Source of the DNA: an uncultured Bacteroidota bacterium
Lineage (GTDB): Bacteria > Bacteroidota > Bacteroidia > Flavobacteriales > Flavobacteriaceae
Length of the DNA stretch: 64,000 bases
Direction of reading: 5' to 3'
Assembly (NCBI GenBank): GCA_902515565.1
Contig: CABXVR010000002.1
Coordinates: 1 to 64,000, forward strand
Shown here: piece by piece, positions 899-38,111 of the stretch
Layout: the number at the start of each line of letters is the position of its first letter
How positions within the stretch are numbered: the first letter of the stretch is position 1
Position numbers and translations under genes: made by a program
The notes under the pieces: generated by a model
Seen by the model: the letters and a program-made list of their open reading frames with translations, nothing else
Databases searched by the model: none
What the model was told of the DNA's origin: nothing

Positions 899-1684
899 AT
901 GAAAACGGAGAAAGTTTCAGAGTTTATAGTCGATTGGCTAAAAAATTATGCTCAAACAAATAAAATATCAGGTTTTGTTGTCGGCATTTCTGGTGGAATA
1001 GACTCTGCTGTTACTTCCACTTTATGTGCGAAAACTGGACTTGAAGTAATATGTGTTGAAATGCCTATTAAGCAAAATGATGAACATGTCACTAGGGCTA
1101 AAAATCATATAAAAAATCTTCAATTAAATTATGATAATGTTACTGGTAAATTAGTAGACTTAAACTCTGTGTTTGATTCATTTTGTAATCAAGTAAATTC
1201 ATCGAAAAAAAAATTTACTCATGAACTATCGTTGGCTAATTCAAGAGCGAGATTAAGAATGACAACTCTTTATTATTTTGCAGGAATTAACAATTACTTG
1301 GTTGTTGGTACAGGAAATAAAGTTGAAGATTTTGGAGTTGGTTTTTACACGAAATATGGAGATGGAGGAGTTGATTTAAGTCCAATAGCAGATTTATTGA
1401 AATCTCAGGTTTACAACTTAGGTAAATTCTTAAATGTTGACAATACAATAATTAACGCTAAACCAAGCGATGGTTTATATGCTGACTCAAGGTCAGATGA
1501 AGATCAAATTGGAGCCACATATGATGAATTAGAATGGGCAATGAATGCTAAAGCATCAAATTCTAAAATTAGCAGTAGAGAAAAAGAAGTTCTTAAAATA
1601 TATAGAAGTTTTAACACAAAAAATAGGCATAAAATGGAACCTATTCCAATATGTACGATTCCAAAAGATCTATTAACAGATTAA
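899..1684 (+). CDS. nadE: NAD(+) synthase NadE, ammonia-dependent type
   Basis: NadE makes NAD+ from nicotinic acid adenine dinucleotide, ATP and ammonia in the cytoplasm. At 261 residues it is the short form without a glutaminase domain, so it should use free ammonia. The PP-loop SGGIDSA lies at residues 31-37. Further family motifs are the segment around NSRARLRMT, then VVGTGNKVEDFGVGFYTKYGDGG with the acidic NaAD site, followed by DLSPIADLLKSQVY. The ATG start gives a normal N-terminus. The stop overlaps the convergent dnaG stop by four bases. Function is secure from the motifs. Confidence 0.95.
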   Translation: MKTEKVSEFIVDWLKNYAQTNKISGFVVGISGGIDSAVTSTLCAKTGLEVICVEMPIKQNDEHVTRAKNHIKNLQLNYDNVTGKLVDLNSVFDSFCNQVNSSKKKFTHELSLANSRARLRMTTLYYFAGINNYLVVGTGNKVEDFGVGFYTKYGDGGVDLSPIADLLKSQVYNLGKFLNVDNTIINAKPSDGLYADSRSDEDQIGATYDELEWAMNAKASNSKISSREKEVLKIYRSFNTKNRHKMEPIPICTIPKDLLTD

Positions 1685-3633
1685 ATTACTCTTTTTAGTT
1701 TTCTAGAAAGTAGCATCTTTAAATTAGAATAATTTAATACCTCATCAAGAATTGATTTATTTTCTTGACTATCAATTGTCTTATTTTTGAACTCATTTAC
1801 TTTTTGATCAATTAAAAAACATCTTAAGTTTAGAATTGTATCGTTAACTAACTGGGCAATAGTTTTTGATTTTTCTTTTGGAAAAATATTACTCCTTTGC
1901 CAATCGTGTAGTCTGTATTTTTCTTCGCCCATTAGTATATTAGTTATTTCTAACTCAATGCTAACTGGAACTTTATTTGCAAACATCTCAACTGTGATAT
2001 TTGATCCTTTATTTAAATTTTCAATAATTATGTAATAAATATTTTTAAAATCATCATTTGAAAACTCCATTTCATCTTCTTGAAGATCCATATATATTTT
2101 TTCAAAAACTTTACTTGTCTTGACGACTGGTTCTAAAACTAATTCCCCAGCTTCATTTTCTTTTAATAATAAATCTTCAAAATCCTCTGTTTTATCTCCA
2201 TATAAAATTAATATTTCTATGATTTTTTTTTCTAATTCATATAAAACATTGATGCTCTTTTTTTCGTTTTTATTTTTAACAACCCTAAAAGATTCTTCTG
2301 ATCTTGAAGTAGGTTTGTTTAATTTAGAGCTTTGTTTTTTAGAAATCTGAGCTAAAGTACTATATAAAACTTCCTCGCTAATATCCATAATTGAAGAACA
2401 CTCCTTTATATATATCTCTTTTTTTATTTGATCACTTATTTTTGAAATACTTGCTACCATATCTCTAATAGTTTCTGATTTTTTTATAGGATCATTTTTA
2501 GCACCTTCAATTAATAAGGATGCTTTATAGGTTATAAAATCTTTTGAATTTTCTAAGAAATAAGAAGACAACTCTTCAACATTTTTATCTTTTGCAAAAC
2601 TATCAGGATCTTCACCCTCAGGTAAATTACATATTTTCACATTCATCCCCTGCTCAAGTATTATGTCAATACCTCTAAAAGCAGCATTTATTCCTGCAGA
2701 ATCTCCATCAAATACTACTGTTATATTATTTGTAAGTCTATTAATTAGTCTTATTTGGTCTGAACTTAAAGCAGTCCCCGATGAAGAAACTACATTACGT
2801 ATTCCTCTTTCATACATCCTCATCACATCTGTATATCCTTCAACTAAAAAACAATTGTCTTGTTTTGCAATCTCCTGTTTGGCATGAAATAAACCATATA
2901 AGACTTTACTTTTGTAGTAAATCTTACTTTCAGGTGAGTTAAGGTACTTGGCAGTAGATTTTGAGGTTTTTAGCGTTCTTCCTCCAAAACCTAAAACCCT
3001 ACCAGACATACTTAGTATAGGAAAAATTACTCTTCCTTTAAATCTGTCAAATTTCTTATCCTCTTTAACAATTGTTAAACCAGATTTTTCTAAAAATTCA
3101 ATCTTATAGCTATCTTTTATAGCCTGATCTGTAAAACTAGTCCATTCATCCTTACAATATCCTAATTGAAATCTATTAATAGTGTCTTCTGCAAATCCTC
3201 TTTCTTTGAAATAACTTAACCCTACCGACTTACCTTCATCAGTTTTTTTAAGGGTTTTTTGAAAAAACTTGTTGGCATAATCACTTACTAAATATAAACT
3301 CTCCATTTCATCAGACTCGAGTTTTTGTTCGTTTGTTTGCTCGGTTTCTTCAACTTCAATATTATATTTATTTGCTAAATATTTTATAGCTTCTGGATAA
3401 GTGAAGTGTTCATGCTCCATTAAAAAAGTAATGGCAGTACCACCTTTTCCACTTGAAAAATCTTTCCAAATCTGTTTTACAGGAGAAACCATAAAACTAG
3501 GAGTTCTTTCTTCACTAAATGGGCTTAATCCTTTAAAATTCGATCCAGATTTTTTTAATTGAACAAAGTCTCCTATGACTTCCTCAACTCTTGAAGATTC
3601 GAATACTTTATCAATTGTGGACTTTGAAATCAC
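1681..3633 (-). CDS. dnaG: DNA primase DnaG
   Basis: DnaG lays RNA primers for replication. At 650 residues it is of normal family length. The order is an N-terminal zinc-ribbon-like fold (about residues 30-90), the RNA polymerase/Toprim core (about 120-350) with VEGYTDV, DGDSAG and PEGEDPDSF, and a helical C-terminal helicase-interaction region. The start is GTG (3633-3631), giving MISKSTIDKVFESSRVEEV, the usual flavobacterial beginning. Oddly, none of the four zinc ligands of the E. coli ribbon is present: the CPFH position reads SPFS and the CFGC position reads DFSS. I recall this loss in other Flavobacteriia, so it is probably a lineage trait and not damage. It is convergent with nadE. 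Confidence 0.95.
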   Translation of the reverse strand: MISKSTIDKVFESSRVEEVIGDFVQLKKSGSNFKGLSPFSEERTPSFMVSPVKQIWKDFSSGKGGTAITFLMEHEHFTYPEAIKYLANKYNIEVEETEQTNEQKLESDEMESLYLVSDYANKFFQKTLKKTDEGKSVGLSYFKERGFAEDTINRFQLGYCKDEWTSFTDQAIKDSYKIEFLEKSGLTIVKEDKKFDRFKGRVIFPILSMSGRVLGFGGRTLKTSKSTAKYLNSPESKIYYKSKVLYGLFHAKQEIAKQDNCFLVEGYTDVMRMYERGIRNVVSSSGTALSSDQIRLINRLTNNITVVFDGDSAGINAAFRGIDIILEQGMNVKICNLPEGEDPDSFAKDKNVEELSSYFLENSKDFITYKASLLIEGAKNDPIKKSETIRDMVASISKISDQIKKEIYIKECSSIMDISEEVLYSTLAQISKKQSSKLNKPTSRSEESFRVVKNKNEKKSINVLYELEKKIIEILILYGDKTEDFEDLLLKENEAGELVLEPVVKTSKVFEKIYMDLQEDEMEFSNDDFKNIYYIIIENLNKGSNITVEMFANKVPVSIELEITNILMGEEKYRLHDWQRSNIFPKEKSKTIAQLVNDTILNLRCFLIDQKVNEFKNKTIDSQENKSILDEVLNYSNLKMLLSRKLKRVI

Positions 3634-27307: not shown

Positions 27308-27624
27308 TTTATGAGATTCTTAAAATTAAAGGCTTTAATTAAATTATTCTTAGTGAAAGATGGCTAAATTTGAAATATCCATATTTATCTATTTTTCAGT
27401 GATTTAACCTTATAAATCCTAAATAAATATATATTTATTAATTGAATATTAAAAATTAATAACCGAATTATTAATTAGTATTTAGAATTAGGAAAAATGA
27501 TATATAGACCATTATTTAAAAAAATAAAATGAACTATCAAAAAGAATAAAAAAAACTACCAATAAGATTGAACTAATAAAATAAAAATAGACTTTTCAAC
27601 ACAAATTAAGCTTAAATAACTATA
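27308..27624. other. 317-base non-coding spacer upstream of ilvD
   Basis: The region is very AT-rich and holds no gene I can support. It should carry the ilv-leu operon promoter, but I find no exact TAnnTTTG box. Near ilvD there is an inverted repeat (AATTAAAG, one base, CTTTAATT; 27324-27340). GATTTA and TAAATC (27420-27403 on the minus strand) form another. A ten-codon minus-strand ORF lies at 27382-27350. No GC-rich terminator with a U-tract is present, unlike the pheA leader. Confidence 0.5.
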
Positions 27625-32163: not shown

Positions 32164-32772
32164 ATGCATATTGCAATTGCAGGAAACATTGGAGCAGGAA
32201 AAACAACTTTAACTAATTCACTAGCCAAGCATTACAAATTCGAGGTACAGCTTGAAGATGTAGTAGATAATCCATATTTAGATGATTTCTATAATGAAAT
32301 GGAAAGGTGGAGTTTTAATCTTCAAGTTTACTTTTTGAATAGCCGATTTAGACAGCTAATTGATATTACAGAAAGTAAAAAAAATGTAATTCAAGACAGA
32401 ACAATTTACGAGGATGCAAATATATTTGCACCTAATTTGCATGCAATGGGCTTAATGGCCAATCGTGATTTTGAAAACTATAAATCTCTATTTGAATTAA
32501 TGGAATCAAAGGTAGACGCCCCAGATTTATTAATTTATTTAAGAAGCTCAATTCCCAATCTAGTTTCTCATATACACAAAAGAGGAAGAGATTATGAAAA
32601 TTCAATAAGTATTGACTATTTAAGTAGATTAAATGAGCGTTATGAAGCTTGGATTCACAACTACAACAAGGGTGAATTATTAATCATTGATATTGATAAT
32701 TTAGACTTTGTTGATCACCAAGAAGATCTTGAGAAAATAATTTCGATGGTTGATGAAAAATTAAAGAAATAA
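32164..32772 (+). CDS. Deoxynucleoside kinase
   Basis: This is a 202-residue dNK-family kinase. The P-loop GNIGAGKTTL is at residues 7-16. QDRTIYEDANIFA holds the DRS-like catalytic region (about 79-91), and HKRGRDYENSIS is the LID arginine motif (about 138-149). It phosphorylates deoxyribonucleosides to 5'-monophosphates; which base it prefers cannot be told. A second dNK domain occurs fused to FolK at 53970-55094. A strong terminator follows. Confidence 0.9.
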   Translation: MHIAIAGNIGAGKTTLTNSLAKHYKFEVQLEDVVDNPYLDDFYNEMERWSFNLQVYFLNSRFRQLIDITESKKNVIQDRTIYEDANIFAPNLHAMGLMANRDFENYKSLFELMESKVDAPDLLIYLRSSIPNLVSHIHKRGRDYENSISIDYLSRLNERYEAWIHNYNKGELLIIDIDNLDFVDHQEDLEKIISMVDEKLKK

Positions 32773-35295: not shown

Positions 35296-36276
35296 TTATT
35301 TTTTGTAAAGCACTTTTTTAACAGCTTTAATTACATCTTCACTGTTTGGAAGCCATTCAGCTAAAAGAACAGGTGAATATGGAGCTGGAGTATCTGCAGT
35401 ATTTATCTTTTCAATTGGAGCATCTAAATAATCAAATGCTTTCGACTGAACTTGAAAAGTAATTTCAGTGGAAACATTTCCAAAAGGCCAAGCTTCTTCT
35501 AAAATAACTAGTCTATTTGTTTTTTTAACAGATTTAAGTACACTGTCAATATCTAAAGGTCGAACAGTTCTTAAATCAATAATTTCACAAGAAATATTTT
35601 CTTCCTTTAATTTATCGGCTGCTTTGTATGCCTCTTTAATTATTTTTCCAAATGAAACTATAGTAACATCTGAACCTTCTCTTTTAATGTCAGCAACTCC
35701 AATCGGTAATGTGTATTCTCCTTCAGGAATTTCACCTTTATCTCCATACATTTGCTCGCTCTCCATAAAAATAACAGGATCATCATCTCTAATAGCAGAT
35801 TTTAATAATCCTTTAGCATCGTAAGGGTTTGAAGGAACTATGACCTTAAGACCAGGTGTATTTGCAAACCAATTTTCAAAAGCTTGAGAATGAGTCGCAC
35901 CTAATTGACCTGCAGATGCAGTTGGGCCTCTGAAAACGATAGGGCATTTAAATTGACCACCAGACATTTGTCTGATTTTTGCAGCATTATTAATAATCTG
36001 ATCAATTCCAACAAGGGAAAAATTAAATGTCATGTATTCAACTATAGGACGGTTACCTGTCATTGTGGAGCCGATAGCAACACCTGCAAATCCCAATTCA
36101 GCAATTGGTGTGTCAATGACTCTTTTTTCTCCAAATTCGTCTAACATTCCTTTTGAAGCTTTGTAGGCTCCATTATATTCTGCAACTTCTTCTCCCATAA
36201 GATAGATACTTTCATCTGCTCTCATTTCTTCTGACATTGCCTCACAAATAGCTTCTCTAAATTGAATTGTTCTCAT
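35296..36276 (-). CDS. Pyruvate dehydrogenase complex E1 component, beta subunit
   Basis: This 326-residue protein is the beta chain of a ThDP 2-oxoacid dehydrogenase. It has MGEEVAEYNGAYKASKGMLDEFG at the N-terminus, DTPIAELGFAGVAIGSTMTG, and the C-terminal transketolase-type swivel domain (ILEEAWPFGNVSTEI). The wording of these motifs fits the pyruvate enzyme better than the branched-chain one. The alpha subunit and E2 are not in the window, so they are encoded elsewhere, as I recall for Flavobacteriia. It is divergent from etfBA. Confidence 0.88.
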   Translation of the reverse strand: MRTIQFREAICEAMSEEMRADESIYLMGEEVAEYNGAYKASKGMLDEFGEKRVIDTPIAELGFAGVAIGSTMTGNRPIVEYMTFNFSLVGIDQIINNAAKIRQMSGGQFKCPIVFRGPTASAGQLGATHSQAFENWFANTPGLKVIVPSNPYDAKGLLKSAIRDDDPVIFMESEQMYGDKGEIPEGEYTLPIGVADIKREGSDVTIVSFGKIIKEAYKAADKLKEENISCEIIDLRTVRPLDIDSVLKSVKKTNRLVILEEAWPFGNVSTEITFQVQSKAFDYLDAPIEKINTADTPAPYSPVLLAEWLPNSEDVIKAVKKVLYKK

Positions 36277-36292
36277 TTATATAATTTTACTG

Positions 36293-36300
36293 CAAAAATA
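36293..36300 (-). promoter_or_regulatory. Candidate -7 box for the pyruvate dehydrogenase beta gene
   Basis: On the minus strand TATTTTTG (36300-36293) matches TAnnTTTG and would start a message about 10 bases before the ATG at 36276. The 24-bp palindrome lies about 40 bases further upstream, so one regulator could in principle affect both divergent genes. Confidence 0.4.
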
Positions 36301-36338: not shown

Positions 36339-36362
36339 AATTACTATGCATGCATAGTAATT
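36339..36362. promoter_or_regulatory. Perfect 24-bp palindrome, probable operator
   Basis: The core TTACTATGCATGCATAGTAA (36341-36360) is a perfect inverted repeat and extends by AA on the left and TT on the right to 24 bases. It lies between the divergent pyruvate dehydrogenase beta gene and etfB, roughly 29-52 bases upstream of the predicted etfB start site, overlapping where the -33 box should be. Such symmetry is typical of a homodimeric MarR- or TetR-type regulator. No regulator gene is adjacent. Confidence 0.65.
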
Positions 36363-36376
36363 TATGTATTATTAAT

Positions 36377-36384
36377 TATATTTG
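36377..36384 (+). promoter_or_regulatory. -7 box of the etfBA promoter
   Basis: TATATTTG (36377-36384) is an exact TAnnTTTG match, placing the message start near 36391. This rules out the in-frame TTG at 36382 as the etfB start and supports the ATG at 36403. Confidence 0.55.
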
Positions 36385-36402: not shown

Positions 36403-37149
36403 ATGAAAATAATAGTTTGTATTAGTCATGTTCCTGACACAACTTCAAAAATAAATTTCTCTGATGGAGATACAAAGTTTGAAAGAAATGGTGTTCAATT
36501 TGTAATTAATCCAAATGATGAATTTGGTCTTACAAGAGCAATGTGGTTTAAAGAAAAACAAGGAGCAACTGTTGATGTGATCAATGTTGGTCTTTCTGAT
36601 ACTGAGTCAACTTTAAGAAAAGCGCTTGCCATTGGAGCAGATAAAGCGATTAGAATAGACATGAGTCCTGAGAATGGGTTTAATGTAGCTAAGCAGTTAG
36701 CTAATTATATAAAAAAAGAAAATTACGATCTTGTAATTGCAGGTCGAGAGTCCATTGATTACAATGGAGGAATGGTTCCAGGGATGATAGCTGGTTTGAA
36801 CAATGCTAATTTTATAAACAATTGTATAAGTCTTGAAATTGACGGTACTAACGTGACTGCTTCTAGAGAGATTGACGGAGGAAAAGAAACTATTGAATCT
36901 TGTATTCCACTAGTGATTGGAGCTCAAAAAGGTTTAGTAGAAGAAAGTGATTTAAGAATTCCTAACATGAGAGGAATAATGATGGCTAGAAAAAAACAAC
37001 TTGAAGTTATTCCAGCTATTGATGCATCAAATCAAACTAACTCAATTGAATTTGAAAAACCAAAACCAAAAGGAGAAGTAACACTAGTTTCTTCAGACAA
37101 TTTGGATGAATTAATCAACTTACTACATAACGAAGCTAAAGTAATTTAA
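36403..37149 (+). CDS. etfB: Electron transfer flavoprotein beta subunit
   Basis: EtfB and EtfA carry electrons from acyl-CoA and related dehydrogenases to the quinone pool. The ATG at 36403 gives MKIIVCISHVPDTTSKI, the normal family N-terminus, and 248 residues. An in-frame TTG upstream overlaps the promoter and is not credible. ADKAIRIDM and VIAGRESIDYNGGMVPGMIA form the AMP-binding and signature region. It is two bases before etfA. Confidence 0.93.
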   Translation: MKIIVCISHVPDTTSKINFSDGDTKFERNGVQFVINPNDEFGLTRAMWFKEKQGATVDVINVGLSDTESTLRKALAIGADKAIRIDMSPENGFNVAKQLANYIKKENYDLVIAGRESIDYNGGMVPGMIAGLNNANFINNCISLEIDGTNVTASREIDGGKETIESCIPLVIGAQKGLVEESDLRIPNMRGIMMARKKQLEVIPAIDASNQTNSIEFEKPKPKGEVTLVSSDNLDELINLLHNEAKVI

Positions 37150-37151
37150 AT

Positions 37152-38111
37152 ATGGCAATATTAGTATACACAGAATCAGAACAAGGTAAATTTAAAAAAA
37201 TAGCTTTTGAATTAGCTTCTTATGCTAGGGCAATAGCGGATGAAAATAACACTACTGTGACCGCAGTATGTTTCAATGCAGAAAGTCCAATGGAGTTACA
37301 AAACTATGGTGTAAATAAAGTTCTTAATATTTCTAATCAAGACTTAAAATCATTTAACGCCATGTCATACTCCCAATGTGTATTTGAAGCTGCAGAAAAT
37401 GAAAAATCTAACATTATTGTTATTAGCTCAAGTGCTGATTCAAAATATTTAGCTCCGCTACTTGCAGTAAAACATAATGCTGGATATATCTCTAATGCTT
37501 GTGAATTACCAACAAGCTACAGTCCATTAACAGTTAAAAGAACAGCTTTTACAAACAAAGCCTTTGAAATCACAAAGGTTAACACTGAAAATGCATTAAT
37601 AAGTTTAGCTAAAAATAGTTATTCTATAAATGAAGTTAAAACAGATGCATCTTTAGTAGATTTTTCTGTAAATGTTTCCCAAAATGACACAAAAGTTAAG
37701 TCTATAGATAAAGCTACTGATAAAGTAACAATTGCTGATGCCGATACAGTTGTATCAGCAGGCAGGGGATTGAAAGGTCCAGAAAATTGGGGAATGATAG
37801 AAGAATTAGCTGAGGTCTTGGGTGCAGCTACAGCTTGTTCAAAACCTGTATCTGATTTGGGTTGGAGACCCCATGGTGAACACGTGGGTCAAACTGGTAA
37901 ACCCGTAGCAAGTAACCTTTATATTGCTATTGGAATCTCTGGGGCAATACAACATTTAGCAGGAATTAATTCTTCAAAAGTTAAAGTCGTGATTAATACT
38001 GATCCAGAAGCGCCATTTTTTAAAGCTGCTGATTATGGTGTTGTTGGAGATGCTTTTGAGGTAGTACCTGAATTGATAAATAAACTAAAAACTTTCAAGG
38101 CTCAAAACTAA
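37152..38111 (+). CDS. etfA: Electron transfer flavoprotein alpha subunit
   Basis: This 319-residue protein is the FAD-binding ETF subunit. The C-terminal FAD domain is intact: VVSAGRGLKGPENWGMIEELA, then GEHVGQTGKPVASNLYIAIGISGAIQHLAG, and TDPEAPFFKAADYGVVGDA. The N-terminal domain pairs with EtfB. Spacing of two bases makes co-translation certain in practice. Confidence 0.95.
   Translation: MAILVYTESEQGKFKKIAFELASYARAIADENNTTVTAVCFNAESPMELQNYGVNKVLNISNQDLKSFNAMSYSQCVFEAAENEKSNIIVISSSADSKYLAPLLAVKHNAGYISNACELPTSYSPLTVKRTAFTNKAFEITKVNTENALISLAKNSYSINEVKTDASLVDFSVNVSQNDTKVKSIDKATDKVTIADADTVVSAGRGLKGPENWGMIEELAEVLGAATACSKPVSDLGWRPHGEHVGQTGKPVASNLYIAIGISGAIQHLAGINSSKVKVVINTDPEAPFFKAADYGVVGDAFEVVPELINKLKTFKAQN

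Follow-up and report, generated by a model that had tools for sequence, protein, structure and literature searches.

Results

A conserved palindrome upstream of etfBA

A perfect 24-bp palindrome located upstream of etfBA is very probably the binding site of a MarR-type regulator that, in Flavobacteriales, controls both its own β-oxidation operon and etfBA, most likely as a repressor, as judged from comparative sequence analysis. The palindrome lies within the window, the whole 64,000-nucleotide stretch of DNA that was analysed, in which the following features were delineated:

36339..36362, no strand assigned: candidate operator, perfect 24-bp palindrome AATTACTATGCATGCATAGTAATT, with 0 mismatches to the conserved TAYTATGCRYGCATARTA; kept in relatives
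36377..36384, + strand: etfB -7 promoter box TATATTTG (consensus TAnnTTTG), beginning 26 bp past the operator centre
36403..37149, + strand: etfB, electron transfer flavoprotein subunit beta, the conserved target gene; orthologues in 54 of 60 relatives
37152..38111, + strand: etfA, electron transfer flavoprotein subunit alpha, presumably on one transcript with etfB
35296..36276, - strand: pdhB, pyruvate dehydrogenase E1 beta (name kept from the preliminary description), the divergent neighbour
36293..36300, - strand: putative -7 box TATTTTTG of the divergent pdhB

The preliminary description of this DNA had reported a perfect 24-bp palindrome in an intergenic gap of about 126 bases. Both statements were borne out, as positions 36339–36362 read AATTACTATGCATGCATAGTAATT and 126 bp separate the pdhB start at 36276 from the etfB ATG at 36403. 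This is the longest perfect palindrome of the window, in which there are six of at least 16 bp; the runner-up measures 18 bp. Shorter perfect palindromes, such as those at 27422–27439 (18 bp) and 32415–32430 (16 bp), occur in about the number expected by chance. When the window (70% A+T) was simulated 60 times with a first-order Markov model, palindromes reached at most 22 bp, a length seen at 0.017 per window, and none of the 60 simulated windows contained a perfect palindrome of 24 bp. The earlier judgement that a chance origin is very unlikely was slightly overstated, since rarity by itself counts as no more than moderate evidence in AT-rich DNA; conservation of the site in relatives is much stronger evidence and decides the matter. 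Allowing up to three mismatches, the 20-mer core has no second copy in the window, nor does the remainder of the 65%-complete genome (1.27 Mb) contain one, and a search of that genome for further sites with up to three mismatches returned the etfB site together with two weak matches that were no better than the reversed control.

Conservation and spacing at etfB

The window's own genome holds a single copy, and related genomes carry the site too. The 20-mer with up to two mismatches was found in 31 of 60 related genomes and its reversed pattern in none, while the 18-mer TAYTATGCRYGCATARTA with at most one mismatch was found in 44 of the 60, at 1–7 copies each (reversed control, 0). The possibility that the site occurs nowhere else, raised in the preliminary description as a ground for refutation, holds for the 65%-complete assembly of the window's genome and fails for its relatives. 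A second such ground, lack of conservation upstream of etfB, does not apply either: the site was present in 28 of the 30 relatives' etfB loci that were fetched, and 18 of these match at 18 of 18 positions. An alignment of these loci centred on the site gives 1.55 bits per base within the operator, compared with 0.43 in the left flank and 0.55 in the right, which indicates a footprint at etfB and not general similarity. The operator centre lies 26–29 bp upstream of an etfB -7 box in all 28 loci with the site, a count that is favoured by the use of a loose pattern (TAnnTT[TCA][GCA]) over a range of 20–34 bp. Two genomes count against the main reading: G026 has FadB and etfB and lacks both the site and the MarR protein described below, and G039 has a MarR gene with its own site and no site at etfB.

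These data bear on two other accounts of the palindrome. It could be an inverted repeat that arose by chance, or else a terminator or the scar of a transposon, with no operator role, as the AT-rich genome and the six palindromes of the window might suggest; however, its strong conservation across genera and families, its fixed distance from the promoter, the absence of the reversed pattern from all 60 relatives and its single copy in the window's genome all speak against this, and conservation alone already refutes an explanation that we consider almost certainly wrong. The site could also govern mainly the divergent pdhB, or both genes, in a regulon for pyruvate and acetyl-CoA supply. This would fit the presence of pdhB, divergent and adjoining etfB, in all 30 etfB loci examined, but the length of the spacer varies, and the distance from the site to pdhB ranges between tens of bases and over 1 kilobase (L008), whereas the etfB -7 box keeps a constant distance of 26–29 bp. 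The difference argues that etfB is the conserved target. As its spacing to the operator is not kept, pdhB was rejected and is probably not a target; the remaining sites, moreover, lie at fatty-acid genes and not at pyruvate genes, which makes this account highly unlikely.

A MarR gene heads a β-oxidation operon and carries the site

To survey other targets, 60 loci around sites other than those at etfB were fetched and their genes clustered. The gene most often found right after the site, in 23 of the 60 loci, encodes an approximately 150-aa MarR protein, which nearly always heads an operon continuing with a FadB-type protein (802 aa), a thiolase (396 aa) and an acyl-CoA dehydrogenase (about 600 aa); a gene for an AMP-forming fatty-acid CoA ligase often adjoins it. 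MarR, FadB and the ligase were named from Pfam and NCBIfam, and the thiolase and acyl-CoA dehydrogenase by sequence reading. Copies upstream of such β-oxidation genes and of one MarR gene had been predicted in the preliminary description, and the arrangement found is almost exactly the one foreseen.

The MarR winged-helix domain was detected in the protein above the curated cut-off (PF01047, E 7e-8). Its AlphaFold2 model (pLDDT 89.8) gave MarR, MepR, HcaR and PcaV as top Foldseek matches, with CouR and FabT lower. Among the named MarR equivalogs of NCBIfam (HpaR, MarR, SlyA and others), none was matched at its cut-off, the best scores being 32–44 bits where the cut-offs are 121 and 200 bits. 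Of the MarR- or TetR-type dimer proposed originally, Pfam and fold thus support the former, and TetR was rejected as the regulator family because the linked regulator is a MarR protein.

A scan of named genomes with an alignment of this MarR protein yielded 80 loci, found via the protein and not via the site, in Flavobacteriaceae genera that include Winogradskyella, Formosa, Algibacter, Maribacter and Arenibacter. An autoregulatory site, the lack of which the preliminary description had listed as a ground for refutation, lies just upstream of the MarR gene in all 80 named genomes, 79 of them without mismatch (18/18), and its centre is 16–18 bp upstream of the marR -7 box in every locus; this check from the protein side is not fully independent, because the alignment was built from loci chosen by the site. 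In 21 of the 80 loci there is a second operator copy further upstream, with centres roughly 27–30 bp apart. Tandem operators of this kind in the marR promoter are seen, for example, at L083:6429-6473, and in the named loci the downstream copy matches more closely. Upstream of more distant MarR orthologues within the taxonomic class, a TATGCnnGCATA-like core is mostly kept.

Site and MarR gene also occur together across genomes. Among the 60 relatives, 39 have both, 5 the site only, 3 MarR only and 13 neither (Fisher p 7e-7, kinship ignored); among 148 Bacteroidota genomes the corresponding numbers are 19, 2, 8 and 119 (Fisher p 1e-15, again ignoring kinship). One genome counts against the main reading: G046, which comes from another family and is 99% complete, carries three good sites (L065, L093 and L121) and neither MarR nor the long FadB.

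Other genes downstream of the site

A gene for a TonB-dependent receptor follows the site at 7 of the loci around other sites, and in six of these seven genes the operator centre lies 44–46 bp upstream of the -7 box. This receptor gene, whose substrate may be a lipid, is located between glmS-like and atpD-like genes (L095, L101, L104, L105, L111, L116 and L120). At nine loci (L068, L073, L078, L091, L097, L098, L117, L119 and L121) the site recurs before a FabK/nitronate-monooxygenase-like gene, which suggests a role for that gene in lipid metabolism. A FabH-like gene comes after the site at four loci, in two of which the site is more than 150 bp upstream, and further genes after the site encode FadL-type porins, GDSL lipase-like proteins, a zinc-type oxidoreductase and an alpha/beta hydrolase. 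The additional targets (FadL-type porins, GDSL and alpha/beta hydrolases, FabH-like and FabK-like proteins) are mostly lipid-related. The regulon for acyl-CoA or pyruvate oxidation that had been suggested in the preliminary description can be narrowed to fatty-acid (acyl-CoA) oxidation; the pyruvate part was not retained, as the spacing to pdhB is not kept.

Proposed mechanism and sign of regulation

We infer that the MarR protein of the fad operon is the one that binds the palindrome. As a dimeric factor it would act as a local regulator of fatty-acid β-oxidation; being encoded by the first gene of its own operon, with the operator across its own promoter, it would be autoregulated, and an operator at etfB as well would allow ETF to be made at the same time as the acyl-CoA dehydrogenase whose electrons it accepts. 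Less certainly, MarR may repress by covering the -33 or spacer region and be released by acyl-CoA or a fatty acid, a choice of ligand that we assume by analogy.

Flavobacterial -7 boxes occupy -12 to -5 (PMC9723704), which places the operator centre near -29.5 in the marR promoter, near -39.5 in that of etfB and near -58 in that of the TonB receptor gene. An etfB promoter with the palindrome at its -33 region had been claimed at the outset, and both elements are in place: the -7 box TATATTTG is present at 36377–36384, and the operator centred near -39.5 covers the -33 region. At marR the operator covers the promoter spacer, as would fit autorepression, and its position at etfB would fit repression, with activation as a less likely alternative. 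The operator of the TonB receptor gene lies at a distance from the promoter that simple steric blocking would hardly explain, which counts against the main reading.

The identity of the regulator and the sign of its action are the points at which other explanations compete. The site might be read by a different regulator of the MarR or TetR family, unlinked to the fad operon, with the MarR gene of that operon as just one of its targets; G046 and G019 have sites and no MarR gene, as this would predict, but G019 is a fragmented, 84%-complete genome, and the site carried by the MarR gene in all 80 named genomes, together with co-occurrence across the phylum, leaves this explanation improbable. 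Alternatively, the regulon could be the same and MarR be an activator or dual regulator at etfB, where its site would replace the -33 element. The site is about one helical turn further upstream at etfB than at marR (26–29 vs. 16–18 bp), the sequence reveals no TTG-type -33 element at etfB, and the spacing at the TonB receptor gene extends the series of centres from -29.5 and -39.5 to -58. Against this, most MarR proteins repress, a repressor centred at -39.5 would still cover -33, and ETF is needed while β-oxidation is running, when the fad operon would itself be derepressed. We regard activation at etfB as doubtful, although deserving of more weight than an unlinked regulator, and retain repression by the fad-operon MarR as the preferred reading. 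A broader proposal is put forward tentatively: an undescribed MarR subfamily may be a general regulator of β-oxidation in Flavobacteriales and part of Bacteroidia that uses three geometries: repression of its own operon from a site near -29.5, action on etfBA from one near -39.5, and action on outer-membrane uptake genes, possibly as an activator, from one near -58.

Relation to known regulators

Several known systems resemble the one proposed here. FabT, a MarR-family regulator of fatty-acid synthesis in Streptococcus (PDB 6jbx), binds a palindrome upstream of lipid genes, its own operon included. By structure and profile the MarR fold is common to both proteins; FabT, however, regulates synthesis, belongs to Firmicutes and is 15–16% identical to the present MarR in structural alignment, and the core here is TATGCnnGCATA. 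MarR regulators of the CouR, HcaR and BadR type (PDB 6c2s, 4rgr) control a degradation operon for aromatic acyl-CoA compounds, and some sense CoA thioesters. They share the MarR fold but differ in their aromatic substrates, in phylum and in sequence (20–22% identity in structural alignment). The job proposed here is done elsewhere by proteins of other families, the GntR-family FadR of E. coli and the TetR-family PsrA/FadR of other bacteria, which control fad genes and in several cases etf genes; sites at both β-oxidation genes and etf, by which that functional class is recognized, were found here.

A search of the literature, with subscription papers outside its range, returned no paper on the MarR regulator or the operator site, and the sole match in a literal search for the palindrome core was an unrelated nematode paper. 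This local, autoregulated MarR regulon is apparently undescribed in searchable papers. Flavobacteria are major marine degraders of algal matter, and binding sites are known for few of their regulators. An operator and a candidate regulator gene present in many cultured genera, with a short list of targets, make the control of lipid use testable in this phylum, and the operator can be used to predict lipid-use genes of unknown function, such as that of the TonB receptor between glmS and atpD.

The fad operon in the window's genome and genus

The preliminary description had placed the regulator elsewhere in the genome. In relatives MarR is carried by a separate fad operon. In the window's own assembly (G000, 65% complete) the operon is cut, and neither a MarR gene of the operon type nor the long FadB was found. 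Contig C6 of G000 opens with the operon's thiolase (31–1221) and acyl-CoA dehydrogenase (1227–3017), the contig end lying 30 bp before the thiolase, so that FadB and MarR are, most simply, probably located beyond the contig edge. The absence of MarR from this assembly and from three of the four other genomes of the genus counts against the main reading. The fourth, G003, is the sole genome of the genus with the full operon; it has two tandem operators upstream of MarR and gave no etfB match. Loss of the operon from the genus was rejected, as G000 keeps the thiolase and acyl-CoA dehydrogenase, and G002 and G004 retain pieces of FadB that are truncated at contig ends. Assemblies of this genus break in or just after the fadB-type gene (G000:C6:1-1226, G002:C69:2 and G004:C36:2), as if the region were hard to assemble or variable.
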